From positions 1 through 28,219 of IMG/VR virus record IMGVR_UViG_3300044801_000076: a DNA stretch of 28,219 nucleotides. One strand, 5' to 3'. This document shows positions 7,901 through 28,219 of this stretch, piece after piece; position 1 is the first letter of the stretch, and every line of letters starts with the position of its first letter. Origin of the DNA: a virus. The translations under genes were made by a program, and so were the position numbers. Below the pieces are notes generated by a model. It ran no database searches, was not told the origin of the DNA, and was given only the letters and a program-made list of their open reading frames with translations.

Positions 7901-9772
7901 GTGACTAGTCAAAATAAGTCTAACCTTACGGCTATAGAACAGATGTTCGCCAGTCTCAAGAAAGAAGTGCTAAAGATAGATCCTGTAGCATTTGCCGAAA
8001 ACTATCTCACTATAGATGGAAAGCCCCTTAAGTTAGGCGGCGGAACAGGATGGAAGTTTCTCGCTGACATCTACCGATATGTGGCCATTAAAGGTTTGGA
8101 GCCCGATGCAAAACCAGTAATTTGTCTGAAAGGGCGACAAATTGGCTGCACAACTATGGCCACTGCCCTGGAGTTATACTTTTGCACCAGCGGGCTCTTC
8201 GGCACATCTCCTGAAAGACCTCCCATCAGAATACTACATTGTTTTCCTGCATTGGCATTAGTTGACCGGTTTGTTAAAGACAAGCTTAGTACAATGATGC
8301 GCACTGCTAAGGATAACTATGTTCTTAAACAATCACTGTCATATAATGAAGACAATGGGAAGAGACGACTTGATGTCCCAGAAGATACTTTGAGGGAAAA
8401 GCAGTTTAAGTACGAGAATAGGCTTTGGGTAGACTCTAATGCGCAGGATGCGCAGCGTCTTCAAGGTATGTCCGTTGATGGCATTTTTTATGATGAGTGC
8501 CAACATATGAACCAGGACGACATTGGTAATAGTAAGAGAACTTTAACCGCCGCTAGGTATGGCCCTGTAAATCAGGGCATTCAGATGTATTTCGGTACGC
8601 CTTTGCAGCGTGGCTCTGCTTTCCATAAAATGTGGGAAGCATCTGATAAGCGAATATACCATCTTAAATGTGAAGCCTGCGAAGAGTTCTTTCCTCTTTA
8701 TGTTCCTGAGTCGGATGATTGGGAACAATATTGGCTATACGGCAAGGTAGTGGCCTGTAGAAAATGCGGGCACCAACAAGATAAAGTAGAAGCAACTGAG
8801 CGTGGTAAATGGATACCGTCTCAGCCATTAATGCCAAATGGAGATGAACCACAGTTTGTTGGCTTTCATTTCAACCAGCTCTTTATTCCGGACTTCACTA
8901 AAGAGGTCATCTTAAAAGAAAAGCCTGGCATTCATCCTACTAACTCAGACCGTATTTGGAAGAATGAAATATTGGGAGAGTTCTACAGTGGTTCAGACAT
9001 GCCAATGTCAGAAGATGAGATCTATAAATTCTGTCGAGACATAAACAGGAAGATATCTTTCGGATCTGAGTCGGTTGCTAGAGTACCTGGACAACTTATT
9101 AATGGATATCGTCCTCCTATGTTTATGGGAATTGACTGGGGTGGTAAAGCTGATGATTCGACATCTACCAAGGGGAAGTCCTTTTCGTCCATAGTTATTG
9201 TGTCGGTGGACCAAGCGGGAACGCTACATATAGAGAACGCCTTCAAGCTTAAGAGCAATGACTTTGAGCACAAGAAAGAAGTGGTTAATGAGATGTTTCG
9301 GCGGTACGACATTAAAATATGCGTGGCTGACTTGGGATATGGCAACGACATTGTTGCCGAGCTACAGAAAGAATATGGATCGCGAGTAATAGGAAGCTTA
9401 AGCGGCGGAAATATGATTCATCCTGTGAAGTATGATCCAGAAGAGTTGAGAATGATAATCAACCCTAATGTGCTACTGGAAGAACTGTTTAGTCAAATGA
9501 GGAAAGGTAAGATTAAGTTTCCTTGGCAAAGCTATGAGATGTTGCATTGGTTAATACAACATTGCTGCTCAATGGAAAAAGAAGTGAGGACTTTTCAGGG
9601 CAAAGTGATTACTCGGTACGTAAAAGGCAATGGACCGAATGATGGACTTCAAGCCATTATGTACGCCTGGCTCAGTTATCGTTATTTCCTAACCAAGGGG
9701 TTTACCATGAAAGAATTCCAGGTGGGCAGAAAAGATAGCGGCCCATTATTGGCTTATTTGCCGAATATGTAG
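7901..9772 (+). CDS. Terminase large subunit (GpA-like DNA packaging ATPase/nuclease)
   Basis: 623 residues with a GTG start. It is the motor that drives DNA into the prohead and cuts genome ends. The ATPase domain has a P-loop-like LKGRQIGCTT (76-85) in which the usual lysine before TT is Cys, while K77 sits at the front, as in the deviant Walker A of lambda gpA. Walker B is GIFYDE (D198, E199), and a coupling motif FGTP lies at 231-234. Two CxxC pairs (C257/C260, C286/C289) form a zinc-ribbon insertion, also typical of GpA-type enzymes. The RNase H-like nuclease follows, with GIDWGG (D412), VADLGYGND (D477) and an acidic PNDGLQ (D581). Length and domain order fit the family, and the portal follows one endonuclease gene later. 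Confidence 0.93.
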   Translation: MTSQNKSNLTAIEQMFASLKKEVLKIDPVAFAENYLTIDGKPLKLGGGTGWKFLADIYRYVAIKGLEPDAKPVICLKGRQIGCTTMATALELYFCTSGLFGTSPERPPIRILHCFPALALVDRFVKDKLSTMMRTAKDNYVLKQSLSYNEDNGKRRLDVPEDTLREKQFKYENRLWVDSNAQDAQRLQGMSVDGIFYDECQHMNQDDIGNSKRTLTAARYGPVNQGIQMYFGTPLQRGSAFHKMWEASDKRIYHLKCEACEEFFPLYVPESDDWEQYWLYGKVVACRKCGHQQDKVEATERGKWIPSQPLMPNGDEPQFVGFHFNQLFIPDFTKEVILKEKPGIHPTNSDRIWKNEILGEFYSGSDMPMSEDEIYKFCRDINRKISFGSESVARVPGQLINGYRPPMFMGIDWGGKADDSTSTKGKSFSSIVIVSVDQAGTLHIENAFKLKSNDFEHKKEVVNEMFRRYDIKICVADLGYGNDIVAELQKEYGSRVIGSLSGGNMIHPVKYDPEELRMIINPNVLLEELFSQMRKGKIKFPWQSYEMLHWLIQHCCSMEKEVRTFQGKVITRYVKGNGPNDGLQAIMYAWLSYRYFLTKGFTMKEFQVGRKDSGPLLAYLPNM

Positions 9773-9845: not shown

Positions 9846-9888
9846 GGCCATCTACTAATATTATTGAGTATAGGTAGATGGTCTTTTT
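9846..9888 (+). terminator. Rho-independent terminator after the large terminase
   Basis: A 10-bp inverted repeat (9846-9855 paired with 9874-9883, one G-T pair), an 18-base AT-rich loop, then TTTTT at 9884-9888. It lies about 75 bases after the terminase stop and just before the homing endonuclease, so it may insulate terminase from the inserted gene or reduce read-through into portal. An ATG at 9878 falls inside the hairpin, which argues against using it as a start. Confidence 0.75.
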
Positions 9889-9913
9889 GCGTATAAAGGC
9901 CGAAGGAGAAGCA

Positions 9914-10756: not shown

Positions 10757-12796
10757 ATGACAGGCAACAATATACGTCGCGGTGTTTGGAAACCGGAATC
10801 AGTAAAGAAAGAGGCGACAGTTAAATCGGGACGGTTTGGTGCTCGTCCGGCAACTGTCAATAATGATGGTTTATCAAACTCAGAGTCTCATTTGGCAGCT
10901 AGAGGAACTACTCCAGTTAGTTCTGCAGTTGTAGCGGGCGTTTCTGAACATCGACAGGAAGAGCTGATTAGAGCTACTGATATGAGGCAAGAAGATTCTA
11001 AGTATCCAACGCCAGTATCTGTGGTGGGGCGCACTCGAACGGCAGGTATTGTATCAGCCGATGGACAACTTAATAAATCGGCCGGGATAGTTTCTACCGA
11101 TGGCCGTTTCAATTCTCCGGGCGGCAATACAGTTCGAATGGCTCCAGAGGTTTACTCACCGCTATTCCAAATAGCGAACTTACAGCTTCCGCGAGATCGA
11201 ATTACGTGCAATGCTTGGAATAGAAACTTCTATGCTACGCATCCTATTGTCCACAACTGCATTAATCTACACGCAACCTATCCGATTAACAAGATCCATA
11301 TTAAGTGCAAATACAGAGAAGTCGAAGACTTCTTTAACGGTATGGATGAAGAACTTGATCTGATCAAGATATTACAGGATGCGGCACTTGAATTCTGGGT
11401 AATTGGTGAATGTTTCCCCTACGCAGAATTTGATGAGACCCGTGGAACCTGGAAGTCAATCATTATACAGAATCCAGACTATATGCACGTCAAGACCTCT
11501 GTGCTGGGCAATAATCCAGTGATTTCTATGCGACCTGATGCAGCGTTACAGCGGCTAGTAATGAGCAATAATCCAGCGGATATGCAGTTACGCAATCAGA
11601 TTGATGAAGAGATCCTGTTCCATATTAGAAAGGGAAACAACATCCCGTTTGATAACTTCCACGTTAGTCATTTAAAGATGCCCTCTCATCCTTATGATGT
11701 CCATGGGACATCTTTGATCGTTGATATCTATAAGGATTTGATGCTTTTCGACAAGCTTCGCGAGTCTCAATTTGCTATGGCCGATGGTATGGTGAATCCA
11801 ATTACATTGGTTAAGGTTGGTGGTTCTGAAGAAGGCAGTTATCACCCCACTAGCGATGCTTTGGAAAAATGGCGCCAAACATTTGAAGCTGCTCAGTATG
11901 ATCGCGATTTCAAGATCATTACCCATGGAGCTGTTACAGTTGAACGTATTGGTGCTGCCGGTCAAATAAAGGACATTAGCCCTGAGCTAGCCTTTATTGT
12001 AGACGATATCTTCTACGGGCTGTTAGTCCCTAAGGCTATTGTAACGCAGGATGGTGCTGCTTTTAACTCAGCATCAATAGGACTGGAAGTCCTGAAACAG
12101 CGATATGAGCAGTTCAGAAATATGATGGGTCAGTGGCTCACTAAGAAGATCTTTGCCCCTATTAGTGAGATTCAAGAGTTCTATTCCTATAAGGATGGCG
12201 TTAAGAAACTCATAGTTCCCGAGATCGAATGGAATAAGATGGTTCTATTTGATATGGATAACTACATTCAGATACTGAATACTTTAGCTACAGCCGGTAC
12301 TGTAAGTCAAACCACATTGTTCAAGAGCCTCGGATTGAGCGTTCAAGAAGAGCGCCGCAATAGAAAAGAGGAAATGATCTACCAAGCTATTATCGCGAAG
12401 GAAACAGATATACTCAACACTATGTCTTTGGGCGCATTAAGAGCACTAAAGCCCGATGAAGATATTATAGAACAAACGGTTGACGTGCTCCCTGGCACGA
12501 CCAGCGCAACCTCTGAAGATGCTGGCGGCTTGCCAGGAACCGGTCCCATGCCGAGTGGTATGGGAGGAATGGGTGGCGGCGGCGGATTAGGCGGAGCGCC
12601 TTCTGGGCCTGCCGGGGGGCTACCCTCTGCTCCTGCTCCAGTATCAACACCGCCTGCTGGTGCTAGTGGCGCTGGGGCGGCGACCGGTGGTGGATTAGGC
12701 GCAGGGGCTCCTGGTGGAGCCGGTGGTAGCGCTGGAGGTCTTGGCGCTGGCGCACCTCCTCCTTCAGCAGCTCCATCTGGCGGAGGCTTAACATAA
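10757..12796 (+). CDS. Portal protein
   Basis: 679 residues. The first about 130 are a polar, probably flexible N-terminal arm carrying a 13-residue tandem repeat. The conserved core begins near residue 135 and contains the features usual for portal proteins: a WNRNFYATHPIVHNCI helix, a long segment with EFWVIGECFPYAEFD, an IIIQNPDYMHV strand, an HVSHLKM strand, and a YGLLVPKAIVTQDGAAFNS segment leading into the long stem helix. The last about 100 residues are almost entirely Gly, Ala, Pro and Ser. Portals form the dodecameric ring through which the terminase threads DNA. The size and strand/helix pattern fit, and the terminase neighbour supports the call. The Gly/Pro tail is unusually long and may be a flexible interior or crown extension. 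Confidence 0.85.
   Translation: MTGNNIRRGVWKPESVKKEATVKSGRFGARPATVNNDGLSNSESHLAARGTTPVSSAVVAGVSEHRQEELIRATDMRQEDSKYPTPVSVVGRTRTAGIVSADGQLNKSAGIVSTDGRFNSPGGNTVRMAPEVYSPLFQIANLQLPRDRITCNAWNRNFYATHPIVHNCINLHATYPINKIHIKCKYREVEDFFNGMDEELDLIKILQDAALEFWVIGECFPYAEFDETRGTWKSIIIQNPDYMHVKTSVLGNNPVISMRPDAALQRLVMSNNPADMQLRNQIDEEILFHIRKGNNIPFDNFHVSHLKMPSHPYDVHGTSLIVDIYKDLMLFDKLRESQFAMADGMVNPITLVKVGGSEEGSYHPTSDALEKWRQTFEAAQYDRDFKIITHGAVTVERIGAAGQIKDISPELAFIVDDIFYGLLVPKAIVTQDGAAFNSASIGLEVLKQRYEQFRNMMGQWLTKKIFAPISEIQEFYSYKDGVKKLIVPEIEWNKMVLFDMDNYIQILNTLATAGTVSQTTLFKSLGLSVQEERRNRKEEMIYQAIIAKETDILNTMSLGALRALKPDEDIIEQTVDVLPGTTSATSEDAGGLPGTGPMPSGMGGMGGGGGLGGAPSGPAGGLPSAPAPVSTPPAGASGAGAATGGGLGAGAPGGAGGSAGGLGAGAPPPSAAPSGGGLT
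11042..11119 (+). repeat. Two-copy 13-residue tandem repeat in the portal N-terminal arm
   Basis: Codons for AGIVSADGQLNKS (11042-11080) are followed directly by AGIVSTDGRFNSP (11081-11119). The DNA copies differ at many synonymous sites, so this is not a fresh slippage product. It lies in the flexible arm before the portal core. Confidence 0.7.
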
Positions 12797-13205: not shown

Positions 13206-15803
13206 ATGCATCCTATCAGCAAACGCGCCAAAGTAGTCTCCGATGGTAAACCAGCCTACACCGAGAAAGAGAGGTCTGATTCCGGCGGAACTATTTACAG
13301 GTACAGCCCAAGTCATATTGATGCTCGCTGGAAGGATAAGGTATCCAAAATCAAGCTCCTCGAAAAGAACATAGGCAAACTGCGTAAGCAGTATGAGAAA
13401 GATCTATCCTCTGATGACCTCCGCACTCAAGCTGAAGCCGCAGTTGTCGGTATTATGGATGACACATGCGCTAGAATTGGCAATGAGGAATCTGTAAAGG
13501 AATACAAAACATATGGCGTTACTACATTCAAGGTAAAGCACCTTACTTTCTCCGGCTCTAAAACCACCTTTAAGTTTGTTGGTAAAGATCAGGTAAAACA
13601 AGATACATTTACCACTAACTCAAAGATCACCAAGGTTCTGAAAGAACTCGTTAAAGGCAAGAAAGATAACGACTTCGTATTTGAGATTGATGGAACCAAG
13701 ATCTGGGACCGTGCTATCAACCGTTACCTTAAGCAGTTCGACATCAGTGCTAAAGACCTTCGTGGTTTTCAGGCTAATCGTTTAATGAAGGATATGCTTA
13801 AGAAGAAGGACTGGCAAGAGGCGCTGGAAGAAGTTGCTGATATAGTCGGACACGAAGCGACCACGCTTAAAAATCAGTATCTCGACCCTGCCTTAGTGGA
13901 AAAACATGAGACTAAGAAAAAGGCCGAGGAGACTAGACCTTTGTCTAAACGCGCGACACGCAATTACTGGCAAGATCCAGACGGTAATATGGTTGAGGTA
14001 GAAGGCCATGCTTCATTTGTAAAGGAGCACCCGGAGATTTTTGGGATGTTACCAGAAGGACAAGACTCTTATCATAAGCTAGCACTTGAGAAAGGATGGA
14101 CTAGACTTGTGCTTGATTCAGAACAACTATCCAAACGTGCAATAGACCAAGATCATCAGGACATGCTTAATCTCATTCTTGTAACTGCCAAACGATACAA
14201 TGGAGCTGTTAAGTTTCGCTATCACCAATCTGCCATTAAGGGCTCGTTTGACCTGTCTTACAATATTGTATTCGATAGCTTAAATGATACTGAATCGTTC
14301 ATACTAGAGGCATATGACTTTTTACCATCCCCGTGGGTGCCAAAGAAACCATACAAGCGCAATGACAAGTATGAAGTATGTATGGATTTTACACTTAGGA
14401 TGACTAGTCATGACATAGCTGTATATGAACAGCAGGTTAAGTATGCTGGTGGTTCTCGACAGCCTCTTTCTAAACGCGCCTTACTAAGTCAGCCTGATGC
14501 GACGTTACTGGAAGGCGTTGGGCCTAATGCGTCAATGCTTAATGGCCCGTCCGTTCTGCCAAACCAAACACCAATAGGCCCTAAGGCCACGCCCCCAGCG
14601 CCAGCAAAAACACAGCCCGCTCCTTCTGTGGCCCCAAACCAGCAGATTCGTATATGGCCGGGAGTTAAGACCAATCAACTACTATTAGATGCTTGGAGCA
14701 CTTTACTTCCGTTCTTACCACAATCTGCTGTAATGACGTCTGGAATACGCACACCTAATGATCAGAAACGTATTCTGCGTAACTACTGGCAAAAGGCTGG
14801 GTTTACTTCACAGGATGAAGGCTGGGGCGATTACTTTATGATGTCCAAGATACTAATAGAGAACGATTGGATCGTAGGCCCTCCTGCCACTAATGCACAA
14901 TATGCTCACCTCCATAATAATGCGATTGATATAGCCGGGGCCGATTTAGATGAAATAGCAGCAGCAATAGAACTGGTGAATGAAAATCCTGAATTGGGGG
15001 TTAAATTTACAGCACCTCTTGTGGAACGTAAAAACAATGATGTTCATGTCGGTATCATGAATGCAAAATACGATCCCAATGCCATAGCAAAAGTGCTACA
15101 GGAGCTAAGGATAAACGAAAACAGAGTGGCTAGTAAGTCTACGTCTATGAGCAAGCTATCCGCTGAAGATCAAGAGTTTATTGCCTATGCCGTTAATACA
15201 TACGGGAAAGGCATTAGTAAAAGAGCAGAGACTTTTGACATTCCCAAAGAGAAATCAGGCATTTCTCCGGAGGCTATAAACAATCTTAAAGGGTTGACTG
15301 ATGACTTTAATACAACAGACTCGGTTATATCTGGTGGGGCTAAAATTAGTGATAAGCCATACGTAACGTTAGAGTGGTATTTGGTTGACAATAGTGATCG
15401 TGCCACTCGTAGTGCCGAAAGATATATGGCTAGCATTTACGTATCCTATAAGACCCCCTTTGGTTTTCAGCAAAGCAAGCTAGTATACTCGTGTAGTGAT
15501 TTGGACGCCGAAAAGCTATCGATGGATCTAAGAAAAGAGCTGGAAGATCCTAAGTTAACAGATGAGATTATGGCCGTGGTGGTAAAATCAATGGAAGTTG
15601 AAAAGGCTAAAGAGGAACATATTAAGAGTCTAAACAGTGATAAACGACTTCTTTCCAAAAGGGCCGATGAAATACAGATAGATATAGGTCCAGATGAGCA
15701 GAAGGTATTTGATCTGTTGAAAGAGGTGAAGGCACATTATGGGCTGAACAAGGTTAAACTTTTTGCTGTGGGTGGATTAGTTCGTGACGCAATCATAAAA
15801 TAG
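13206..15803 (+). CDS. Multi-domain polyprotein-like ORF A with six SKRA boundary motifs
   Basis: 865 residues. Six copies of (L/I)SKRA (ending at residues 8, 250, 312, 425, 674 and 820) divide the protein into unrelated blocks: a short leader (MHPISKRA), a type IB topoisomerase (9-250), a 62-residue YWxDPxG domain, a 113-residue unknown, an M15-like peptidase with a Pro-rich leader (426-674), a 146-residue unknown, and the first 45 residues of a nucleotidyltransferase (821-865). The motif codons vary freely, for example TCT/TCC/AGC/AGT for Ser and CGC/CGT/AGA/AGG for Arg. Such a string of enzymes joined by one repeated motif suggests a polyprotein cut into units, perhaps by the phage prohead protease, but cleavage is not shown. 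The ORF ends in TAG in the middle of a conserved catalytic domain. Confidence 0.85.
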   Translation: MHPISKRAKVVSDGKPAYTEKERSDSGGTIYRYSPSHIDARWKDKVSKIKLLEKNIGKLRKQYEKDLSSDDLRTQAEAAVVGIMDDTCARIGNEESVKEYKTYGVTTFKVKHLTFSGSKTTFKFVGKDQVKQDTFTTNSKITKVLKELVKGKKDNDFVFEIDGTKIWDRAINRYLKQFDISAKDLRGFQANRLMKDMLKKKDWQEALEEVADIVGHEATTLKNQYLDPALVEKHETKKKAEETRPLSKRATRNYWQDPDGNMVEVEGHASFVKEHPEIFGMLPEGQDSYHKLALEKGWTRLVLDSEQLSKRAIDQDHQDMLNLILVTAKRYNGAVKFRYHQSAIKGSFDLSYNIVFDSLNDTESFILEAYDFLPSPWVPKKPYKRNDKYEVCMDFTLRMTSHDIAVYEQQVKYAGGSRQPLSKRALLSQPDATLLEGVGPNASMLNGPSVLPNQTPIGPKATPPAPAKTQPAPSVAPNQQIRIWPGVKTNQLLLDAWSTLLPFLPQSAVMTSGIRTPNDQKRILRNYWQKAGFTSQDEGWGDYFMMSKILIENDWIVGPPATNAQYAHLHNNAIDIAGADLDEIAAAIELVNENPELGVKFTAPLVERKNNDVHVGIMNAKYDPNAIAKVLQELRINENRVASKSTSMSKLSAEDQEFIAYAVNTYGKGISKRAETFDIPKEKSGISPEAINNLKGLTDDFNTTDSVISGGAKISDKPYVTLEWYLVDNSDRATRSAERYMASIYVSYKTPFGFQQSKLVYSCSDLDAEKLSMDLRKELEDPKLTDEIMAVVVKSMEVEKAKEEHIKSLNSDKRLLSKRADEIQIDIGPDEQKVFDLLKEVKAHYGLNKVKLFAVGGLVRDAIIK
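13230..13955 (+). other. Polyprotein A unit: type IB DNA topoisomerase domain
   Basis: Residues 9-250. The pattern matches the catalytic core of poxvirus/bacterial type IB topoisomerases, which relax supercoils through a 3'-phosphotyrosine. Visible catalytic residues are R90 (CARIGNE), K127 (FVGKDQ), R186 (KDLRGF), H216 (VGHEATT) and nucleophile Y225 (NQYLDP). The R90-K127 interval (37) and H216-Y225 interval (9) equal those of the vaccinia enzyme. All five catalytic positions are present, so the domain looks active. It is about 240 residues, close to the minimal catalytic size. Confidence 0.88.
13956..14141 (+). other. Polyprotein A unit: YWxDPxG domain, copy 1
   Basis: Residues 251-312. 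The pattern YWxDPxGxxxxVxxHxxFVxxHxExFG, followed by LA...W.R, is shared with residues 1052-1187 of ORF B, so the two are paralogues. Unknown function. This copy is short and ends right after the shared core. Confidence 0.75.
14142..14480 (+). other. Polyprotein A unit: unknown 113-residue domain
   Basis: Residues 313-425 between two SKRA motifs. The composition suggests an alpha/beta fold: an N-terminal helix (DMLNLILVTAKRYNG), then alternating strands and a CMDFTLRM strand. Not recognised. Confidence 0.6.
14481..15227 (+). other. Polyprotein A unit: M15-like (D,D-carboxypeptidase/endolysin-type) peptidase
   Basis: Residues 426-674. A Pro/Ala-rich leader (about 440-480) precedes a domain with SGIRTPNDQ (512-519), HLHNNAID (H568, D575) and NDVHVG (H614). 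H-x6-D followed by a later H is the zinc-ligand pattern of M15 peptidases, which cut peptidoglycan peptides. Inside the virion this could open the host wall or be released at lysis. The motif variant is loose, so I am moderately sure. Confidence 0.6.
15228..15665 (+). other. Polyprotein A unit: unknown 146-residue domain
   Basis: Residues 675-820. Beta-rich middle (VTLEWYLVDN, YMASIYVSYKTPFGF) and a long C-terminal charged helix ending in the LLSKRA motif. Not recognised. Confidence 0.55.
15666..15803 (+). other. Polyprotein A unit: N-terminal piece of a split nucleotidyltransferase
   Basis: Residues 821-865, ending FAVGGLVRDAIIK then TAG. FAVGGxVRD is the first catalytic motif of class II nucleotidyltransferases. 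The expected next motif, KDIDI, appears at the start of ORF B after a 17-base gap. The fragment alone lacks the metal-binding aspartates. Confidence 0.82.
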
Positions 15804-15817
15804 ATGGAGCATAAATA

Positions 15818-17236
15818 ATGGCTATTGGCAAAGATATCGATATTATGGTGGTAGGTCTTTCGGGTAAAGAGTTTGCCGAATACATGAGTCGCTACCTAAA
15901 AGAGGTGAAACAAGAAACAGCCAAAGTGGGTATAATAGCGGCGCAACCTGAAAAAAGTAAGCACCTAGAAACTGCGACCATGCAAATTTATGGCAACTCA
16001 GTTGATTTTGTTGGACCACGGAAAGAAGTCTATACCACAGACAGTAGGGTCCCTCAAGTTACTGAAACTACCCCCGAGGAAGATTCCAAGAGACGCGACT
16101 TCAACTTCAACAGTCTCTTCATGGATCTCGACGACAACAGTATTAAAGACTTCACCGGGCACGGCATTGAGGATATTAAGAATAGGGTTGTGAGAACCCC
16201 TCTTGATCCTTATATCACTTTCATGGACGACCCACTTCGTATATTACGTGCTATTCGTTTGGCCACTAAATTTGGCTTCACGTTATCTCCCGAGTTAATT
16301 AAAGCCGCACAATCTCCTGCCATACAAGATGCCTTCCGCAAGAAAATCTCTCGTGAACGCATGCATGATGAGTTTTACAAGATGCTTACTGGGCCAGATC
16401 CGGTTGGCGCGATGCAACTACTGAAAGAGGTCGGGCTAAGAGACGAAGTGCTGAAATTGCCTGAGAACTTCTCTACATGGGAACTAGATCAGAAATCTCC
16501 TCACCACGATTTTAATGTCTGGGATCACACTTTACAGGCGCTAACTAACTTACAACAGATCATCAAAGATCGTAACCTAGATGACGCTGATAAGTTCATT
16601 ATTAATCTCGGCATGCTTCTTCACGACGTTGGTAAACTTGACCCCTCTATTCCTCAAACAAAGCAGCTAGCTGATAAGATAATCACAGTATATCATGGGC
16701 ACGAAGCTGCCAGCGCTAAAGCTGCTGAACAGATATTACGTAATCTACCAGGAACCAAGGTAGAAGAAATCGAGGCCATTAAGAAGATCATTATTGGTGC
16801 CGGTAAAACAAGCGTGGGGAGAACAGATACTAGTAAAGAATATGATAAAGGCCGTAAGGCATTGGGTAAGTTCGTGCGAGAGATGGGTACATTGTGGGAA
16901 CATGTGATTGATGTTCGTCACGCAGATGCAGCGGGGCACAAAGTTAATCAGTTCGCCACGCATCCAACTAAGTACTACGATACAATGAAAGAGCAGATAC
17001 GTAACTTTAACCCTAATGCTATAATGCAAATGAAACCCCTACTCAACGGCCAAGAACTCATGACCATGTTCAATCGTAAAGGCGGACCATGGATGGCTAA
17101 GTTGATAGCCGCTCTTATAGATTGGCAGCTAGGCAATCCTAATGCTACACCGGAAACAGCGCGAGCTGAGGTGCAGAGACTCTATACTGATTTGGGGCTA
17201 GACAAACAAGCGTCCAGAGCATTGTCCAAGCGAGCG
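15818..17236 (+). other. Polyprotein B unit: CCA-type nucleotidyltransferase catalytic part plus HD domain
   Basis: Residues 1-473. KDIDI (D6, D8) and SVDF (D63) supply the metal-binding carboxylates; KRRDFNFN (91-98), a GIEDI turn and DDPLRILRAIRLA (137-149) follow as in bacterial CCA-adding enzymes. An HD phosphohydrolase domain comes next: WDHT (H237), LLHDVGK (H269, D270) and YHGHE (H293, H295). In cellular enzymes the HD part removes phosphates from repaired tRNA ends. The GGxVRD element is missing because it is encoded at the end of ORF A. Confidence 0.85.
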
Positions 17237-20038
17237 ATTGATACTATGGATTTTATGCTTACTGATTTCGCCGATGAGTTTCCTAAGCATTGTAACATGT
17301 GTCAGAAAGACTATGTAGGGTTAGAGGATTTCTTGACTCTTGCCCTGCCTAACAGCGATGAAGTAAGACCAGAGCTTATAGCAAATGATCCCGGTCTTCA
17401 GTGTATGAGCGACATGTCAGACGAAGATAGTGATGCCGATTTGCTGTATAGAAACTGTTCTTGTGGTAGCACGTTAATTGTAAAAGTTCCATGTATGCAC
17501 CAGGTTAAGACTGCAAAGGCGTTATCTAAACGCGCCAAAGACGCAAAAGACATTATAGATGGGTGGTTTGAAGAAGACCGAAAGAACCCAACCATTAAAG
17601 AAGAGCGACATACCGAAACCAAAGACGTTGAATTATGGCATGGTGTAACCGATACTCAGGCCTTACAAAAACTGTCTAATGGTAGGTATCTCCTTACCCC
17701 GAACCCCAAGTCTGATATGCAGAAGCTATGGTTCGTTCCGACCTTTAACAGTGAATCAAAACGTATTGCTATGGGTTATGCCAACTACGCTATGGTTCGT
17801 GTTATGGTGCCGTTTGAGTTTACTAAGGTAAAAGCCGCCAAGGAAGATGGAAGTGTTAATGAATACACCGAGTCGCATAAAATTGCAGCACCTAAATGGG
17901 AGAGAACATATCAGTGCCAGGAGTATTATTTGCATAATGGGCCGATGGAACTCGATACCAACCAGGTCAAGTTAGCGGCAGACTATGAAGAAGAGATGAT
18001 ATCGCTTAATGCGTCTGTTAAACCCCTGTCTAAACGGGCAGCAGAAGAAACAGTGGAGTTACCGCTTTGGAGAGGAATAAATGACCCAAATACTGTTAAG
18101 AAAGTTGGCAGTAAATACATAATAACCTCTAACCAGGCAGACGGAACTGTTTGGTTTTCCAATGGGTGGACTGCCTCTGGAAGGCAGTTGGCGGAGAAAC
18201 ATTCCTCTTACGCATTGGTAAAAGTCAAGGTGCTATGCAAAATCAATGTTAACTATGATAATGGAAAGAGAGAGATAGACCTAGATTCTATAGTACCTGC
18301 CGGCCCAAGCTGGAAAAGATATGAGCATTCTGCTTCAGGCATAGTTTCTTTTATTCATAATGGTGCTTTAGAAGTGGATGTAAGTTCTGTGCAGGTCGAA
18401 ATAAAGACAAAGCAAGCGTCATTGTCTAAGCGCGCCAAAGAACACAAAGAAGCCGGTGTGTTTATTCCTATTCCGGCCGATTTAGCAAAGCAGTTCAAAT
18501 CACTGGGAGAGCATGATCATAGCCATGCTCATATAACGGTTTTATTCATTGGAGACGTATCTAAAAAACAAGAGTCTAAACTTGTAGAGATCGTAGAAGG
18601 TGTATTGTCCGACCAAGAATCGTTTGAGGTTGAGTTCGAGGACCGTGTTACTTATTTCCCGGTCTCAAAACATTCCGAGGGATGTAAAGTGGCCAAAATC
18701 GGCATTAAGTCAAAGGGACTACATAAGTTACACGACGCTCTTAAGAAAGCCATCAAAGCGGCTGATATAACAATAGAGGATCATTTCCCGGACTACAAAC
18801 CACATACGACCCTTTCATACATGAAGCCGCCGCAAGAGAAATACGACGGCAAAACTCCTACCGGGTCTTTTACGGTTAAGGCGGCTGAAATATGGGGCTG
18901 TGGGAATAAGAAGAAGATACCGTTTGGTAAAGACAAGAAAGCATCATTTAGCCCTCTTTCTAAACGAGCCTCAGTCTATGGCTATTGGCTTGATCCTAAT
19001 GGCCAACTATATCCTGTTGATTATCAACATCACGATAATTTTGTAAGAGACCATGAAGAGTTGTTTGGCCGTGACTATAAAGTTACAGCATACGAGTTGG
19101 CCTTTTCACAGGATTGGATTAGGATTACTATAAATGAAGCCCCTGACAGACTTGATTTTGAGGTGCCAAAATTCGACAATAAGTATCTTGCCAGAATACA
19201 GGCTATCTTGCCTAAATTGCCAACAAGCCGCATGTCAATGATAGATGTTCCAAAAGGTGGTTTCTTATATGTTAAACCATGGGATTTAGTTAGCGCTAGG
19301 AGTTTTGGGCAGCTAAAAGAGATACAGGATAAAGAGAAACCGTTCAGGTCATTTGCTCATGCTATTTCTAAGCGGGCTAAAGCTGATAACATATTAGGGC
19401 TAAAACACAAATTGTCTCCTGATAAGATCACTCGTCTTTATGAACTGGAGTATAAGCTATTCCAACTACAGTCATTAAACTCAAGTCGCCCGTCCACATT
19501 AAAGACTATTGAGCGGCTAAAGGCTGAGCTTTCTATGATGCTGCCAGAAATGCTCCAGATAATGAAGGCGATCTATAGTGAGTGGATTAAGTTTCACGGA
19601 GACGTTATTGAGCCTCAGGATACCCTAAAGAAGGTTAAGATTGAGTATCCTGAAGTAGATCCTAGTAGGCTAGAGGATGAGTATCTAGATTACCAAATGG
19701 GAACTATTACTCCTCATTATAATGCATTCAAGAAGGTGGAGATACAGCTGCAAAAGGAACTATGGTCTAAACCGCCCCTTTCACATATTCTGGAGACATA
19801 TAAACAACTACAGCGCGGGGCAACCGGAAATGTGGGGAATGACGATGCCTTATTTAATCATGCACTAAACGTTTGCCATTTTGGTGGACCGTTCCTAAAC
19901 TACTTTGCCGACACAACTGGTATATCGGGACAGCTATTAACAGACCTGTCAGAGGGCAAATATACCGATAAGTGGGACGTTGAAATATCTAAGTTCGCTG
20001 TTGACGCCTTAAGGCCACTATCAAAACGCGCTAAATAA
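15818..20038 (+). CDS. Multi-domain polyprotein-like ORF B with seven SKRA boundary motifs
   Basis: 1406 residues from ATG 15818, preceded by GGAG at 15806-15809. Seven (L/I)SKRA motifs, ending at residues 473, 573, 741, 873, 1051, 1187 and 1405, split it into: the C-terminal bulk of a CCA-type nucleotidyltransferase with HD domain (1-473), a cysteine-bearing unit (474-573), two tandem paralogous LW(R/H)G units (574-741 and 742-873), a 2H phosphoesterase (874-1051), a YWxDPxG unit (1052-1187) and a helical unit (1188-1405). The protein ends one Lys after the last motif, so the motif caps the C-terminus here just as it lies at the N-terminus of ORF A. A processed polyprotein packaged with the genome is the favoured reading; a motif-linked scaffold of enzymes is the alternative. 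Confidence 0.85.
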   Translation: MAIGKDIDIMVVGLSGKEFAEYMSRYLKEVKQETAKVGIIAAQPEKSKHLETATMQIYGNSVDFVGPRKEVYTTDSRVPQVTETTPEEDSKRRDFNFNSLFMDLDDNSIKDFTGHGIEDIKNRVVRTPLDPYITFMDDPLRILRAIRLATKFGFTLSPELIKAAQSPAIQDAFRKKISRERMHDEFYKMLTGPDPVGAMQLLKEVGLRDEVLKLPENFSTWELDQKSPHHDFNVWDHTLQALTNLQQIIKDRNLDDADKFIINLGMLLHDVGKLDPSIPQTKQLADKIITVYHGHEAASAKAAEQILRNLPGTKVEEIEAIKKIIIGAGKTSVGRTDTSKEYDKGRKALGKFVREMGTLWEHVIDVRHADAAGHKVNQFATHPTKYYDTMKEQIRNFNPNAIMQMKPLLNGQELMTMFNRKGGPWMAKLIAALIDWQLGNPNATPETARAEVQRLYTDLGLDKQASRALSKRAIDTMDFMLTDFADEFPKHCNMCQKDYVGLEDFLTLALPNSDEVRPELIANDPGLQCMSDMSDEDSDADLLYRNCSCGSTLIVKVPCMHQVKTAKALSKRAKDAKDIIDGWFEEDRKNPTIKEERHTETKDVELWHGVTDTQALQKLSNGRYLLTPNPKSDMQKLWFVPTFNSESKRIAMGYANYAMVRVMVPFEFTKVKAAKEDGSVNEYTESHKIAAPKWERTYQCQEYYLHNGPMELDTNQVKLAADYEEEMISLNASVKPLSKRAAEETVELPLWRGINDPNTVKKVGSKYIITSNQADGTVWFSNGWTASGRQLAEKHSSYALVKVKVLCKINVNYDNGKREIDLDSIVPAGPSWKRYEHSASGIVSFIHNGALEVDVSSVQVEIKTKQASLSKRAKEHKEAGVFIPIPADLAKQFKSLGEHDHSHAHITVLFIGDVSKKQESKLVEIVEGVLSDQESFEVEFEDRVTYFPVSKHSEGCKVAKIGIKSKGLHKLHDALKKAIKAADITIEDHFPDYKPHTTLSYMKPPQEKYDGKTPTGSFTVKAAEIWGCGNKKKIPFGKDKKASFSPLSKRASVYGYWLDPNGQLYPVDYQHHDNFVRDHEELFGRDYKVTAYELAFSQDWIRITINEAPDRLDFEVPKFDNKYLARIQAILPKLPTSRMSMIDVPKGGFLYVKPWDLVSARSFGQLKEIQDKEKPFRSFAHAISKRAKADNILGLKHKLSPDKITRLYELEYKLFQLQSLNSSRPSTLKTIERLKAELSMMLPEMLQIMKAIYSEWIKFHGDVIEPQDTLKKVKIEYPEVDPSRLEDEYLDYQMGTITPHYNAFKKVEIQLQKELWSKPPLSHILETYKQLQRGATGNVGNDDALFNHALNVCHFGGPFLNYFADTTGISGQLLTDLSEGKYTDKWDVEISKFAVDALRPLSKRAK
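17237..17536 (+). other. Polyprotein B unit: cysteine-bearing 100-residue domain
   Basis: Residues 474-573. Contains CNMC near the start, then NCSCG and a later single Cys, which could make a zinc site. A very acidic segment (MSDEDSDAD) lies between. Unknown function. Confidence 0.55.
17537..18436 (+). other. Polyprotein B: tandem paralogous LW(R/H)G domains
   Basis: Residues 574-741 and 742-873 align along their length: LWHG versus LWRG, YLLTPN versus YIITSN, LWFVP versus VWFSN, a YA(M/L)V(R/K)V strand, a W(E/K)R segment, and HNGPMELD versus HNGALEVD. They are separate units, each closed by a SKRA motif, so a duplication occurred at unit level. An LxRG strand followed by a WFS-type strand and a YA...V strand is reminiscent of ADP-ribosyltransferase folds, but no complete R-S-E triad can be pointed out. 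That reading is weak. Confidence 0.6.
18437..18970 (+). other. Polyprotein B unit: 2H phosphoesterase (2'-5' RNA ligase-like)
   Basis: Residues 874-1051. Two HxT motifs define the family: HAHITVLFIG (H905, T907) and KPHTTLSY (H996, T998), 91 residues apart, in the usual two-lobed arrangement. Members hydrolyse or form 2',3'-cyclic and 2'-5' phosphodiesters in RNA; the fold also includes the phage anti-CBASS nuclease Acb1. Both catalytic pairs are present. Which substrate it acts on cannot be read from sequence. Confidence 0.85.
18971..19378 (+). other. Polyprotein B unit: YWxDPxG domain, copy 2
   Basis: Residues 1052-1187. Shares the YWxDPxG...V..H..FV..H.E.FG core with copy 1 in ORF A, but has an extra about 75 residues after the core. 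Function unknown. Confidence 0.72.
19379..20035 (+). other. Polyprotein B unit: helical C-terminal domain
   Basis: Residues 1188-1406. Long charged helices (about 1195-1250 and 1300-1340), then a compact segment with HALNVCHFGGPFLNYFAD, ending RPLSKRAK. Not recognised; could be an internal head protein. Confidence 0.55.
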
Positions 20039-20111: not shown

Positions 20112-21377
20112 ATGGTTGATTTCTTTGCACTAATTGGACAGGTATCCATTAAGATAAACGAGATTCTGGACGTAATGTCCGTTGCTATGGACGAAAAAGA
20201 CACCGCCGAGGCTAATAAGCTCTTAATGGAGGCCAAGAAATGGTCGGTTGTTAAACAAGACTTGATAAAGGCAACCAAGGAGAAGTTCGGTGAGAAGCTT
20301 TTGTCTCCTGCCACTAAAGAGATGCTTAAAGGGCTATTACCAGAAAAGCCAGTTACCAATATGAAGCATGAGATGGAACTAATGGGATTACCAGAAAAGT
20401 CTCAACGAAAAGAGGAACTAGATACTATGTTTGAAACCATTCCATCATTAAAAAGGCCTGTATCTTGGGCTCCACCAAAGCACTCTGATGATATTGATGC
20501 AGGTCCAATAGATTTAACTAGCGCCATTAATGTTGAGTCTCTAGTCAAACAAGCCGATGGCGAAGGAAAAGAGTTCAAGCTATTATTGTCGTTTGCTAGA
20601 GCCTTGGCCCACATCTTTCAGCATGCGCATTGGGCCTCAGCAAATACAAACTTCTACGGAGATCACTTGCTCTTTGAGAGGATCTACAACAGCGCTAATG
20701 GAGATATTGACGTTATAGCCGAAAAGGCAGTGGGCATTACAAATGATTCTAGCACCATTAATCCTATCGAGGACATAAAATACACTGCTACCATCGTCAA
20801 CAAGTTAGTCTCTGGTGAGTTTAACCCAGAGTCTTTCTCCGAGATAGGCATCGCGGCCGAGAAAGAGTTCCTTAAACTTATCGAGAAGATGATGGCTGGT
20901 AATAAGTCGGATGGCGTTCAGAATATGCTTCAGGGCATAGCTGATAAACATGAAGGACATCTATACCTCCTACAGCAGCGTAACCGAACAGCCTCATTAT
21001 TAGTTAACACACTTACCAAGTTCGCATTCAATATGGATCGTGCCAGTAGATACTCTGAAGCTGACAAGATTGATGCGATGATTAAAGACCTGTGTGAACG
21101 AACCGGGCTTAAAATATCTGGTGATGATTTGGTTGCCACGTCTAATAAGCTGGATGAGATAGGGCTTTATGAAGAGGCTGACCAAATTGATGGTATGGTA
21201 AAAGAAGCCAAATGTCCTCAGTGCGGCAACCATGAATTTGGGCTAGGCGATACGAATGATATGTGTGAAGATTGTGGTTACCCCATGGTGAGATTACCAC
21301 GAGAGCCGGGCGTTAAAAAGATGTTGACACCGGGCAAACGAAAACACAAAGACGACGATACTTTTGACAAAACCTAA
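20112..21377 (+). CDS. Dps/ferritin-like domain protein with two EAD hairpins and a zinc ribbon
   Basis: 421 residues. Residues about 1-110 are helical and charged. Residues about 155-290 are a Dps-type four-helix domain: HWASANTNFYGDH (H173, H185) and DIDVIAE (D200, E204) reproduce the Dps ferroxidase quartet, with intervals 12, 15 and 4 identical to E. coli Dps (H51, H63, D78, E82). The later KHEGHLYLLQQR fits the last Dps helix. Two copies of the recurring EAD hairpin follow (297-328, 339-366), then a zinc ribbon (C368, C371, C385, C388) and a basic tail. Dps proteins oxidise iron and shield DNA. Here the domain is embedded in a larger phage protein beside virion genes, so a capsid-interior protein is plausible. 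Confidence 0.82.
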   Translation: MVDFFALIGQVSIKINEILDVMSVAMDEKDTAEANKLLMEAKKWSVVKQDLIKATKEKFGEKLLSPATKEMLKGLLPEKPVTNMKHEMELMGLPEKSQRKEELDTMFETIPSLKRPVSWAPPKHSDDIDAGPIDLTSAINVESLVKQADGEGKEFKLLLSFARALAHIFQHAHWASANTNFYGDHLLFERIYNSANGDIDVIAEKAVGITNDSSTINPIEDIKYTATIVNKLVSGEFNPESFSEIGIAAEKEFLKLIEKMMAGNKSDGVQNMLQGIADKHEGHLYLLQQRNRTASLLVNTLTKFAFNMDRASRYSEADKIDAMIKDLCERTGLKISGDDLVATSNKLDEIGLYEEADQIDGMVKEAKCPQCGNHEFGLGDTNDMCEDCGYPMVRLPREPGVKKMLTPGKRKHKDDDTFDKT

Positions 21378-21423: not shown

Positions 21424-21948
21424 ATGTTCACAAAGATTGTTGCATGGTTAAAGGCAGTTAAGGCGTCAGTGGTAAAGTGGTTTACGTCCGTGGCAGCCGA
21501 ATTAGAGGCTGATGCTAAGAAAGATGTAGCAACTGTGGTAGCTGATGTTACTAAGTTTGTTACAGCGGCCAAGACAGAAGTGAAGACAGTATTGGCATCT
21601 GTTAAGGCAGATTTCGTAGCGGCTAAGGCAGATATTGCAGTGGCCGAAGCTGAAGTTAAGATGGTTATTGCAGATGTTGAGGCGGAAGTGAAGAAGATCG
21701 TTGCGGATGTAAAGGCAGACGTTGTAGCCATCGAAGCTGAAGTAAAGAAGATTGTTGCCGATGTTGATGCGGATATTGCAGATGTTAAAGCAGATATTGC
21801 AACTGTTAAAGCAGTAGTTGCAGTCATTAAAGCAGATATCGCAGCTATTAAGGCAGACATTGTTGCCGTGTCAGCTGTTGTAACACCTGTAACAGTAACT
21901 CCGGTAGTTCCGGCACCAGTTCCGGCCACACCAATTACAATCAAATAA
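21424..21948 (+). CDS. Ala/Val/Lys heptad-repeat protein
   Basis: 174 residues. After a short amphipathic N-terminus (FTKIVAWLKAVKASVVKWF), about residues 25-155 consist almost wholly of seven-residue units such as VKADIAT, IKADIAA and VKKIVAD, with Val/Ile at the first and fourth positions. This predicts one long continuous helix or coiled coil of about 130 residues. The tail is Pro/Val/Thr-rich. GGGAG lies ahead of the ATG. The composition resembles rod-like or apolipoprotein-like amphipathic proteins; it could be a fibre, tape-like spacer or membrane-surface protein. The long open frame on the opposite strand across this gene is a by-product of the repetitive codons. Confidence 0.8.
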   Translation: MFTKIVAWLKAVKASVVKWFTSVAAELEADAKKDVATVVADVTKFVTAAKTEVKTVLASVKADFVAAKADIAVAEAEVKMVIADVEAEVKKIVADVKADVVAIEAEVKKIVADVDADIADVKADIATVKAVVAVIKADIAAIKADIVAVSAVVTPVTVTPVVPAPVPATPITIK

Positions 21949-21970: not shown

Positions 21971-22411
21971 ATGTTTAATCGTCTAATGAAACTGGCTAAT
22001 GAACTAGACTCGTTGGGTCGCTTTAATGAGGCGGATGAAGTAGATGCACTTATACATGCAATAGCGGCGGGCGAAATTGATATTGACGAGGCGCCTATTG
22101 ATTTGACCGAGGAAGATACGGGGCTAACAACTCCTCCTGCGGTCGTACCTCAGGTAGATGATGAGATGGCTAAAATGCGGGCCGAGCGGGACAGGCTATT
22201 GCAAGAGAGCAAAGAACTGACCCTTAAGAAAATGCGCAAGACGCCAAGCAGTGGTATTAAAGTAAGCCCGAAGGGGGCTGTATCAATTTATGGGCTCGGG
22301 CATTGGCCAGTTACTTTATACGCCGGGCAATGGACAAAGCTCTTAGAGATGAAAGAGAAGATCCTGCAGTTCATCGCTGAGAACGAGAAATTCCTGAACA
22401 TAAAGGGATAA
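21971..22411 (+). CDS. Hypothetical protein: N-terminal EAD hairpin plus small C-terminal domain
   Basis: 146 residues. Residues 1-28 (LANELDSLGRFNEADEVDALI) are one of the clearest copies of the recurring hairpin. An acidic linker follows with a DIDEAPIDLT element (37-46) nearly identical to DIDAGPIDLT in the Dps-like protein (127-136). Then come a charged coiled coil (about 64-90) and a compact domain (about 92-146) with the pattern SPKGAVSIYGLG..PVTLY..QW..LL. Function unknown. The hairpin plus the linker motif tie it to the Dps-like protein two genes upstream. Confidence 0.78.
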   Translation: MFNRLMKLANELDSLGRFNEADEVDALIHAIAAGEIDIDEAPIDLTEEDTGLTTPPAVVPQVDDEMAKMRAERDRLLQESKELTLKKMRKTPSSGIKVSPKGAVSIYGLGHWPVTLYAGQWTKLLEMKEKILQFIAENEKFLNIKG

Positions 22412-25400: not shown

Positions 25401-26288
25401 ATGAGCGGCAAACGATACGGCAAAGAAGAGGTTGCTTTATGGGCCAAAGAGTATATGAGCTGTGGGTCTATTAAAGAAGTTGCTAAGAAATTCGATGCTG
25501 GTGCAGATACTGTTAGTAAACGATTGCATGAGTGTAAAGAAAAACTTGGCCTAGTTTTCCCATTCGAAGATGATGAGCTACTCTTTTCAGAATGTAAAAT
25601 GAGATGTTCTGGCAAATGTGGATTAGTTAAATTATTGGTCGAATTTTATCATGAGGAAAGTGGCAGAATTGCTCATATTTGTATAGAGTGTAAAAGGAAA
25701 CATCAAAGAGAATATGGTGCCTCTCACAAAGAAGAAGAACTTGAAAGATCCTACAATTGGGCTAAAAACAATCGAGAAAAGTCTAGACAAATAAAGGCAG
25801 ATTGGGTCAAGAACAATCCAGAAAAAGTCAAAGCGTCTACCAAAAAATCTAATGCTAAACAGGCACCTAAGCAAAAAATATGGCGGGAAGAAAACAAAGA
25901 TAGAACAAACGCACAAGCAATAGAAAGAAGGAAGACCGATGTAAACTTCAAAATTGCTTGCAACCTAAGATCTAGGATTTCTACTGCTGTGAGAAAAGGG
26001 TTTAAGTCTGGTTCTGCTGTTCGTGACTTGGGATGTTCAATTGAAGAGTTGAAGAGCTACTTTATTCCTATGTTTTATATGAACCCAGAAACTGGAGAGA
26101 TAATGTCTTGGGATAACTATGGAGAATGGCACATAGATCATATTAAACCACTTATATCATTTGATCTAACCGACAGAGAACAGTGCTTGAAAGCATGTCA
26201 TTATACAAATCTACAGCCTTTGTGGGCTAAAGAAAACATCGCAAAGGGTGGCAGAATTATTGAGGAGCAATCAGATGTCATTTACTAA
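25401..26288 (+). CDS. HNH homing endonuclease with HTH and zinc-binding region
   Basis: 295 residues. N-terminal HTH-like segment (IKEVAKKFDAGADTVSKRL, about 24-42). A cysteine group (C65, C69, C73, then C94, C97) around FYHEESGRIAHICIECKRKHQREY fits a zinc-binding module. A basic linker of KNNPEK-type repeats (about 115-175) may wrap DNA. The HNH fold is at the end: WHIDHIKP (H244, D246, H247), NLQPLW (N270) and AKENIAKGG (N279), intact. It is more AT-rich than its neighbours, as usual for a mobile gene. Its last 14 bases overlap the next gene, whose ribosome site it contains. No intron ends seen; freestanding. Confidence 0.87.
   Translation: MSGKRYGKEEVALWAKEYMSCGSIKEVAKKFDAGADTVSKRLHECKEKLGLVFPFEDDELLFSECKMRCSGKCGLVKLLVEFYHEESGRIAHICIECKRKHQREYGASHKEEELERSYNWAKNNREKSRQIKADWVKNNPEKVKASTKKSNAKQAPKQKIWREENKDRTNAQAIERRKTDVNFKIACNLRSRISTAVRKGFKSGSAVRDLGCSIEELKSYFIPMFYMNPETGEIMSWDNYGEWHIDHIKPLISFDLTDREQCLKACHYTNLQPLWAKENIAKGGRIIEEQSDVIY
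26262..26267 (+). promoter_or_regulatory. Protease ribosome binding site embedded in the HNH gene
   Basis: GAGGAG seven bases before the protease ATG at 26275, read as Glu-Glu codons near the HNH C-terminus. Same arrangement as at 10745-10750 for the other intact endonuclease and portal. Confidence 0.7.
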
Positions 26289-28219
26289 ACTCGGCGAGGC
26301 GCTTGATTTCGATCTACAGAGGGACTTGCTTTCTCCTAAAGAAGCACTGCCTAACGATGAAATAGCAAACAGGTTTATCAAAATGGCCAAGAAGCTTAAA
26401 AGACTTGCTCCAAAAGCAAGCGGGTTTCTGTACGGCCACTGCATCATGATGCATGCGGCTGAAGCCTCCTTGGTTGACCAGAAAACTGGTAGTCCAATTC
26501 TTGGATCGAACGGCAAGCCTATTACTGCCATTTTTGAATCTTTTAAAACTAAAAACGGGAAAGAATCAGTTCGATGGAAATGCAGTAAAGAAGACATTAT
26601 GCCATATAAGAATGCCAATGGAGATATTTTCCCAGAAAGTGAATTGCTCAAGGCGCACAAACACTGGATCGAGAAACCGCTTTGCAAGGATCATAAGTCG
26701 GAATCTGTTGATGGCATTCGAGGCATCATAATAGATACCTATTATGATCCTCGCTTTAAGCGGGTACATGCACTTTTCGCCCTTGACAAAACCAACTATG
26801 CTGATTTGGCACGAAAGGTTGAGACAGGTTATGCGAACGCGGTATCTATGGGGACCGCAGTAGGGCGCTCCGTGTGCACTACGTGCGGAAACGTAGCTAC
26901 CGCGGAGCGCGACTACTGCGATTGTATTAAAGCAAGATCAAATTACGGCGAGATCAACCTAGATCTTAATCCTCTCGAATTGAGTCTTGTAGTCAACGGT
27001 GCTGACCATCTTGCCAAAATCCAGAACATCATTGCCTCCGTTAATAACTACGTCCAGAAGAAGCAGGCTCGTATCGATCAGCTGGTCAACGACCGGTGCG
27101 TTAACCCTACTGAATTACAATCTCTAGCCGACTCGGTTAACGAGATTCAAGCCAAGCTCAACAGTCTCATGTCTCTACAGAAAACCGCCTCTACCAAGAA
27201 CGCGGCTGAGATGGGCGAAATCAGTAAGGCCATTGAGGTTCTACAAGAACAAGTCGATTTAGAAACTGACCCCGAAAAGCAAACCAAGTTACGTCAGAAG
27301 ATAGATGAGCTGGTCGACGACCTAGAAGTTACCCCTAAGGGTAATGAACGCACGCCAACAGAGGAATCTTCACCGGAACATAACTTATATTGGCCGCAGG
27401 CCACTGGTGGCGGATCAGAACCAAGCTTTAGCACTATGTCAGATCAGGATACAGCAGCCCCGGCTCCAGGATCGTTTGATCCGACAGCTAGGTTTGCTGG
27501 TAATGATATAGAAGGAGTGAAACAGGGTACTGAAGAATTAACACTCCTTCGATCCAAGGTAGCAGACTTACAGAAGTCCATTTCGGACATGCAAGACAAA
27601 CTTTCACAAGGAGAATCAAATACTATGAACTCAGCGAGATTACGTACACGAGCAAAGGCACGAAGGGCATATTGGTTAGGTGGTGGGGGCGTCAATGAGC
27701 CTACTCCCGGCAAGGCAAAGTATGAGAAAGATCCAATGGCAGAGGAAGTTCGCAATAAAGAAGACAAGCAGATGACAGGCGTTGTAGAAACTGGATCGGA
27801 TGGATTGTACCCTGGTGACGAAGAAAAACTACGCGGTGTGAACCGTGGTGGCTTTAATCTTAGTAAGGCGGAATTAGAAGACCGCAAAATGAAGCGCAGA
27901 GCATATTGGATGGGCGGTGGCGGTATCAACGAACCCACACCAGGTAAGCAGAAATATGATAAAGATCCAATGGCCGAGAAGGTTCGTAACACCGAAGACA
28001 AACAGATGTTGCAGACTATGGATATGGGCGGAACCGATGGTTCCTTCCCCGGTGACGTAGAGACTAAGAAGCGTATCAACCGTGCTGGCCTCAAGGCCCG
28101 GTTCACGAAGGTTGCAGACTCCAAAGGTCAGCTCAATAAGAGCGCGTCCCATTGGGACGTGTTTGCCGACGACCAGATGATTCTATCGGCCACCGGCTCT
28201 GAAATCTTCGGTGATCAGA
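26275..28219 (+). CDS. Probable prohead protease fused to scaffold-like region (3' end cut by window)
   Basis: At least 648 residues; no stop before the right edge. Residues about 45-245 resemble the protease domain of large myoviruses: HWIEKPLCKDHKS (H140), a DTYYDPRFKRVHALFALD stretch (154-171), and GYANAVSMGTAV with S191 in the position expected for the nucleophile. A CTTC...CDC cysteine group (C201, C204, C215, C217) follows. Then comes a coiled-coil region (about 245-345), a disordered Pro/Ser/Gly part, another coiled coil (about 415-445), and a 78-residue tandem repeat. A protease followed in frame by a scaffold-like region is the layout of lambda C/Nu3. Family assignment is from motif pattern only. 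It is the natural candidate to cut the SKRA sites. Confidence 0.65.
   Translation, partial: MSFTKLGEALDFDLQRDLLSPKEALPNDEIANRFIKMAKKLKRLAPKASGFLYGHCIMMHAAEASLVDQKTGSPILGSNGKPITAIFESFKTKNGKESVRWKCSKEDIMPYKNANGDIFPESELLKAHKHWIEKPLCKDHKSESVDGIRGIIIDTYYDPRFKRVHALFALDKTNYADLARKVETGYANAVSMGTAVGRSVCTTCGNVATAERDYCDCIKARSNYGEINLDLNPLELSLVVNGADHLAKIQNIIASVNNYVQKKQARIDQLVNDRCVNPTELQSLADSVNEIQAKLNSLMSLQKTASTKNAAEMGEISKAIEVLQEQVDLETDPEKQTKLRQKIDELVDDLEVTPKGNERTPTEESSPEHNLYWPQATGGGSEPSFSTMSDQDTAAPAPGSFDPTARFAGNDIEGVKQGTEELTLLRSKVADLQKSISDMQDKLSQGESNTMNSARLRTRAKARRAYWLGGGGVNEPTPGKAKYEKDPMAEEVRNKEDKQMTGVVETGSDGLYPGDEEKLRGVNRGGFNLSKAELEDRKMKRRAYWMGGGGINEPTPGKQKYDKDPMAEKVRNTEDKQMLQTMDMGGTDGSFPGDVETKKRINRAGLKARFTKVADSKGQLNKSASHWDVFADDQMILSATGSEIFGDQ
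27608..27627 (+). promoter_or_regulatory. Possible internal in-frame start for a nested scaffold protein
   Basis: AAGGAG (27608-27613) precedes an in-frame ATG at 27625 (residue 451 of the protease gene), at the boundary between a coiled coil and the repeat region. Spacing of 11 bases is a little long. Internal starts that produce a separate scaffold are known from lambda Nu3. Confidence 0.45.
27661..28095 (+). repeat. Two-copy 78-residue tandem repeat in the protease/scaffold gene
   Basis: Copy 1 starts at 27661 (RRAYWLGGGGVNEPTPGK) and copy 2 at 27895 (RRAYWMGGGGINEPTPGK), exactly 234 bases apart. Both continue through KDPMAE, VRN, EDKQM, a GxDGxxPGD segment and NRxG. The DNA copies differ at many third positions while the protein is kept, so the duplication is old and selected. 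Confidence 0.85.

Follow-up and report, generated by a model that had tools for sequence, protein, structure and literature searches.

What is a Dps-like protein doing among the head genes of a large uncultured phage, and does it travel with the genome? The locus that raises this question lies in the IMG/VR virus record IMGVR_UViG_3300044801_000076, whose entire 28,219 bases were analyzed and are referred to here as the window. The record is linear and, by its classification, probably a fragment. On its plus strand, a terminase large subunit is followed by a portal protein, a polyprotein in two open reading frames (ORFs), the Dps-like gene and a head maturation protease. The Dps-like gene thus sits inside a head-morphogenesis module, with the portal on one side and the protease on the other. 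The main features are as follows.

7901..9772, + strand: terminase large subunit (phrog_675, E 3e-58)
10757..12796, + strand: portal protein (32.6% identity to the Bacillus phage G portal over 61% of the length)
13206..15803, + strand: polyprotein, first part (type IB topoisomerase and other domains, separated by (L/I)SKRA spacers)
15818..20038, + strand: polyprotein, second part (CCA/poly(A) polymerase head, HD and 2'-5' RNA ligase domains, separated by (L/I)SKRA spacers)
20112..21377, + strand: complete Dps-like gene, 421 aa, comprising an N-terminal helical module, a Dps domain, two EAD hairpins, Cys4 knuckles and a short basic tail (ORF, domain searches, AlphaFold)
20112..20546, + strand: N-terminal helical module, residues 1-145 (alignment; missing in the orthologue of contig G005)
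20556..20999, + strand: Dps-family domain, residues 149-296 (sequence searches, AlphaFold, structure comparison)
20628..20723, + strand: codons of the ferroxidase ligands H173, H185, E189, D200 and E204, first to last (sequence)
21012..21089, + strand: EAD hairpin 1, residues 301-326 (HMM, E 7e-10)
21129..21206, + strand: EAD hairpin 2, residues 340-365 (HMM, E 4e-10)
21213..21275, + strand: CPQC...CEDC, possible zinc ribbon, residues 368-388 (sequence; sub-threshold in Pfam; poor model)
21297..21374, + strand: C-terminal tail, net +3 over 26 residues (charge count)
26248..28218, + strand: head maturation protease, extending past the end of the window (phrog_18299, E 4e-13)

Given the limited identity of its portal to that of phage G, the phage is assigned to an unclassified lineage that is a distant relative of phage G in this protein. 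Several neighboring genes deserve mention. A homing-endonuclease-like gene (9878-10756; phrog_4645, E 5e-44) is inserted between terminase and portal, and an ORF near the protease (25401-26288) appears HNH-like by eye. The gene adjoining the Dps gene (21424-21948) encodes a very repetitive, coiled-coil-like protein of Ala, Val, Lys and Asp with a weak match to phrog_19577, a minor head protein family (E 1e-6).

The earlier note had placed a Dps-like ferroxidase domain at 20580-20990 (residues 157-293 of the ORF at 20112-21377), based on the spacing of four residues. The ferroxidase residues of E. coli Dps (H51/H63/D78/E82, with a fifth ligand position at D67) are matched exactly in spacing (12/15/4) by H173/H185/D200/E204 of the window protein. 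In addition, E189, which had been missed, occupies the D67 position and completes the five-ligand set, giving the pattern H-x11-H-x3-(D/E)-x10-D-x3-E of the inter-subunit ferroxidase site of Dps. The HW motif and the matching last helix (KHEGHLYLLQQR) described earlier are both found in the protein. In 20,000 composition shuffles of the protein, the quartet spacing occurred in 29 and the quintet in 2. A chance origin of the quartet is rejected; the spacing alone is unlikely to arise by chance, yet the proof lies in homology.

That homology is detectable by several routes, which bear out the Dps assignment. A phmmer search of the PDB with the window protein found the S. aureus Dps 2d5k (E 3.6e-4) in an alignment that is ungapped across the H-H-E-D-E residues, and PHROG_3636 was matched with E 1.9e-8. 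As a single sequence, the protein scores 20 bits against Pfam Ferritin (PF00210), below the 24.5-bit cutoff. A profile of 47 phage relatives reached a best E-value of 1.8e-11 in the PDB, and its best 60 PDB rows were all Dps-family proteins or Dps scaffolds. The quartet is kept in 48/48 non-redundant relatives, a conservation that is partly ascertained, because YGDH and IDxxAEK were part of the search patterns and HW...H served as the domain finder, so that some of these residues entered the selection. The fifth position is more variable among the 48 (E 26, Q 11, S 5, D 4). A further histidine, H280, is kept in 45/48 phage sequences and is absent from the best-aligned Dps4 chain. A bacterioferritin-type Dps-like protein was considered and is rejected by the ligand pattern, as inspection of the 48-sequence alignment revealed neither a conserved acidic residue in helix A nor an ExxH in helix B, whereas an intra-bundle site of that type has a Glu in helix A and an ExxH in helix B.

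The predicted structure agrees with this assignment. The AlphaFold model of residues 151-300 (block-mean pLDDT 82-98) displays the Dps arrangement of a four-helix bundle with a BC helix (αA 153-175, αB 181-210, BC 218-232, αC 239-261, αD from 267). The best 50 Foldseek rows are all Dps, and alignment to MsDps2 (8hwz) with VIA gives a Z-score of 18.3 and an rmsd of 2.4 over 141 residues, exceeding the level of about 13 at which the tool warns of helical bundles. The BC-helix model, the Foldseek rows and this Z-score together uphold the fold proposed earlier, for which a structure other than a four-helix bundle had been named as the refutation. BFVD lists Dps-fold matches in proteins named 'Prohead protease'; the link between Dps and heads that these names would provide is not relied on here. 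Taking homology and model together, residues ~149-296 constitute a bona fide Dps-family (mini-ferritin) domain. It shares the BC-helix fold, the exact ligand spacing and the HW motif with bacterial Dps, MrgA and Dps4 proteins (PF00210; MsDps2 8hwz, Nostoc Dps4 5hjh, S. aureus 2d5k), at about 10-21% identity to solved Dps. Unlike bacterial Dps, it is embedded in a protein of 421 aa with an N-terminal module, EAD hairpins and Cys4 knuckles.

The nature of these additional parts is clarified by two relatives. A 162-kb contig (G005) encodes a 310-aa Dps orthologue with 38% identity, located in the same head-module synteny as in the window. All five ligand positions are retained, the fifth again as E, and a pair of EAD hairpins follows. 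Since this orthologue starts at the Dps domain, with its first residues MSKIVLADGS aligned opposite SLVKQADGEG of the window protein, residues 1-145 are regarded as a separate module. The VKQA-D just ahead of the Dps domain may be a processing site; in many phage Dps fusions, a K/R-rich A-S, A-G or A-C junction directly precedes the Dps domain and could likewise be processed.

At its C-terminus, the G005 orthologue has an HMG-box-like tail where the window protein has Cys4 knuckles. This tail scores 19.5 bits in a whole-protein search and 24.3 bits as a segment (E 4e-5), slightly below the 25.4 cutoff. Its model contains three helices (block-mean pLDDT 84-96), and it carries a net charge of +13 over 82 residues. 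In the second relative (G004), the corresponding locus encodes two EAD hairpins followed past a frame change by an HMG-like segment, without a Dps domain. The segment resembles the G005 tail by eye, although by itself it matched nothing in Pfam. Between the EAD-EAD ORF and this segment, the frame shifts at nine consecutive A residues (L022:6839-6850), reflecting either programmed slippage or a sequencing error. The G004 arrangement suggests that Dps is a swappable cargo on an EAD carrier. Within the lineage, as judged from these genes, the carrier (the EAD pair plus a putative DNA-binding end) is kept, whereas Dps may be missing and one type of end can replace another. Relatives were reached only through the terminase and through a three-sequence Dps alignment; a pattern scan of viral contigs with the single protein found nothing.

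The EAD helical hairpin has the consensus LIxLADxLDxxGxxxEAxxIDxLI. Two copies stand behind the Dps domain, as the earlier note had described, and the hairpin is found in at least 7 window proteins, including those at 431-919, 4262-4969, 6634-7113, 21971-22411, 22842-23855 and 24799-25398. It also occurs in loci L004 and L018-L023. We built an EAD HMM from 20 instances and applied it to G005, where it matches 10/35 ORFs of the virion segment vs 0/113 elsewhere (Fisher 1.8e-7), a test somewhat biased by seeds taken from the virion module; 2 of the 10 matching ORFs were non-seeds, and none lay outside the segment. All EAD-positive ORFs fall at 43-85 kb, where terminase, portal and protease are also encoded. 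Neither the loci retrieved from all other phages nor the initial 40 kb of phage G contain the hairpin. Its occurrence is limited to this lineage and, within it, to the virion module, and as such it serves as a marker predicting virion-module proteins in the lineage.

The polyprotein next to the Dps gene (13206-15803 and 15818-20038) consists of unrelated enzyme domains set apart by 13 copies of (L/I)SKRA. The motif has 15 matches in the window, vs 0.9 expected from shuffling. The same spacers are present in G005 (L018/L019) between different enzymes, including a LigD phosphoesterase. The spacers are candidate prohead-protease sites of a putative packaged enzyme kit. A TAG stop at 15801-15818 splits the poly(A) polymerase head domain over two ORFs; in G005 it is a single ORF. 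The G005 portal ORF (L018:12493-16734, 1413 aa) is apparently broken by two intein-like insertions that the window portal lacks. In their multi-enzyme composition, the neighbor genes at 13206-20038 resemble the polyvalent proteins of phages (PMC5512222), from which they differ in that a recurring (L/I)SKRA spacer divides the enzyme domains; neither of the terms Dps and ferritin appears in that paper.

To place the window protein among other phage proteins, we surveyed the wider Dps subfamily, which is widespread: the first scan yielded 71 loci and the second 226 candidate relatives, 80 of which were retained. Within a set of 115 distinct phage Dps proteins, to which the window protein does not belong, EAD hairpins occur only in the G005 orthologue. 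Proteins of at least 230 aa account for 41/115, and 19/115 (~16%) contain a stretch whose net charge reaches +18 or more per 60 residues, the maximum being +33. In eight loci (L052, L059, L068, L076, L080, L084, L086 and L092) a C-terminal Dps domain belongs to a long protein with protamine-like Lys/Arg-rich stretches of +25 to +33 per 60. A search of plasmids returned no match. In phage records, LR745208 was the sole match at a usable E-value; weaker matches (E 0.03-10) were mostly annotated as Dps or DNA-binding proteins, and some were hypothetical or unannotated. The head-module placement cannot be generalized past this lineage: the PF04586 profile had no match in 20 other Dps contigs, phrog_15 had none in 16, and the PF03237 terminase was found in four, with Dps within ~10 kb in one and tens of kb away in three. 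In PHROG scans, Dps neighbors in other contigs were mostly of unknown function.

We put at about 50% the probability that the Dps protein is head (prohead) cargo and that its ferroxidase shields the genome from iron and peroxide. The EAD hairpins, or a precursor segment removed by the maturation protease, would bring the protein into the prohead, where the Dps domains would assemble into dimers or dodecamers. The ferroxidase would oxidize Fe(II) with peroxide, sparing the phage genome Fenton damage within the capsid or during cell entry, and the protein would be held on DNA by its variable C-terminus, which consists of Cys4 knuckles in the window protein and of an HMG-box-like tail in G005. 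Packaging, as proposed in the earlier note, is plausible: we infer it for this protein from the head-module location, the virion-module hairpins and the report that the Dps of phage Privateer was detected with its purified virions (PMC7881722). The finding of SU10 Dps in a phage preparation (PMC4281155) also speaks for packaging. Against it, that preparation contained the polymerase and other middle, clearly non-virion proteins as well, and SU10 Dps is itself a middle gene; moreover, in 3/4 of the other contigs in which a terminase was found, the Dps gene lies tens of kb from it. A protective role in the capsid also has the acidic Dps core (net -5) and the scarcely basic tail against it.

The same charges bear on the DNA condensation or shielding that had been proposed for the window protein. 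The Cys4 knuckle pair (C368/C371/C385/C388) is there in the sequence, but the zinc ribbon read from it is sub-threshold in Pfam and poorly modeled, and the proposed basic tail has a net charge of only +3 across its 26 residues. Together with the -5 of the Dps domain, these make condensation the weakest step of the mechanism here. The idea is better backed by relatives with an HMG-like tail (G005) or protamine-like fusions, and it is through the ~16% of related phage Dps with protamine-like stretches that it stays alive, weakly supported as it is for the window protein.

Alternatively, the protein could be an unpackaged stress protein that acts inside the host during infection as an iron store and peroxide scavenger, so that the cell stays productive, its place in the head cluster reflecting only late expression. 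Intracellular tolerance of reactive oxygen species is the published reading for the Dps of Gratiaviridae, other gut phages and Lactobacillus phages (PMC8008677, PMC6669764), and most relatives are stand-alone and shorter than 230 aa, several of them encoded far from the terminase. However, such stand-alone proteins lack the fusion to a virion-module hairpin, whereas the window gene lies between portal and head protease and bears a tag restricted to that module. On balance, this explanation appears unlikely. Slightly less likely still is a structural or inner-body protein, in which the Dps bundle serves the head as an oligomerization scaffold or DNA organizer, its iron chemistry being incidental. 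The head-module position, the HMG-like tail of the G005 orthologue and the highly charged stretches in 19/115 phage Dps (at least +18 and up to +33 per 60 residues) are consistent with it; the four ligands, superfluous for a pure scaffold, are nevertheless kept in 48/48 sequences, a figure partly due to ascertainment, and neither core nor tail of the window protein is strongly basic. That the resemblance to Dps is superficial, the bundle belonging to another ferritin-like or an unrelated class, is very improbable: the single-sequence Pfam score under the curated cutoff and the readiness with which long helical bundles match one another would allow it, but the best 60 PDB rows (Dps-family or scaffolds), the best 50 Foldseek rows (Dps) and the exact ligand spacing largely exclude it.

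Returning to the Dps protein as head cargo, phage-encoded Dps as such is already known, in one case with purified virions. The stand-alone Dps of phiEco32-like phages (SU10 CDS67, Privateer QIN94861; PHROG_3636) are encoded by middle genes beside DNA metabolism, without an EAD or Zn/HMG module. Those of Gratiaviridae, gut phages and Lactobacillus phages, likewise phage-encoded with a predicted role in iron or reactive oxygen chemistry, are read as intracellular, and the parts of these reports consulted describe no head-module setting or fusion (PMC8008677, PMC6669764). The Dps fusions of uncultured huge phages (for example L052, L068, L076 and L080) belong to the same phage Dps subfamily and are long proteins whose Dps domain is internal or stands at the C-terminus; they differ in having Lys/Arg-rich stretches in place of EAD and Zn modules and come from other lineages. 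Within the searches and literature covered, three things appear to be new: the Dps-EAD-EAD-Zn/HMG architecture in a head module, the exchange of its modules among relatives, and the fusions of Dps to protamine-like stretches in other huge phages.

Tailed phages are usually thought to package near-naked DNA with few internal proteins. A speculative extension of our findings, which we hold to be rather improbable at present, is that huge phages build a packaged nucleoid, in which a Dps protein with its own DNA-binding module (HMG-like, zinc ribbon or protamine-like) and a lineage-specific prohead tag compacts or coats the genome, its ferroxidase protecting it in the capsid and on entry. The known phage Dps are extended here from stand-alone enzymes to built-in parts of fusion proteins. 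A head-tagged mini-ferritin with exchangeable DNA-binding ends, and with protamine-like counterparts in other huge phages, would make both iron and peroxide chemistry inside the capsid and protein-assisted organization of the phage DNA testable.
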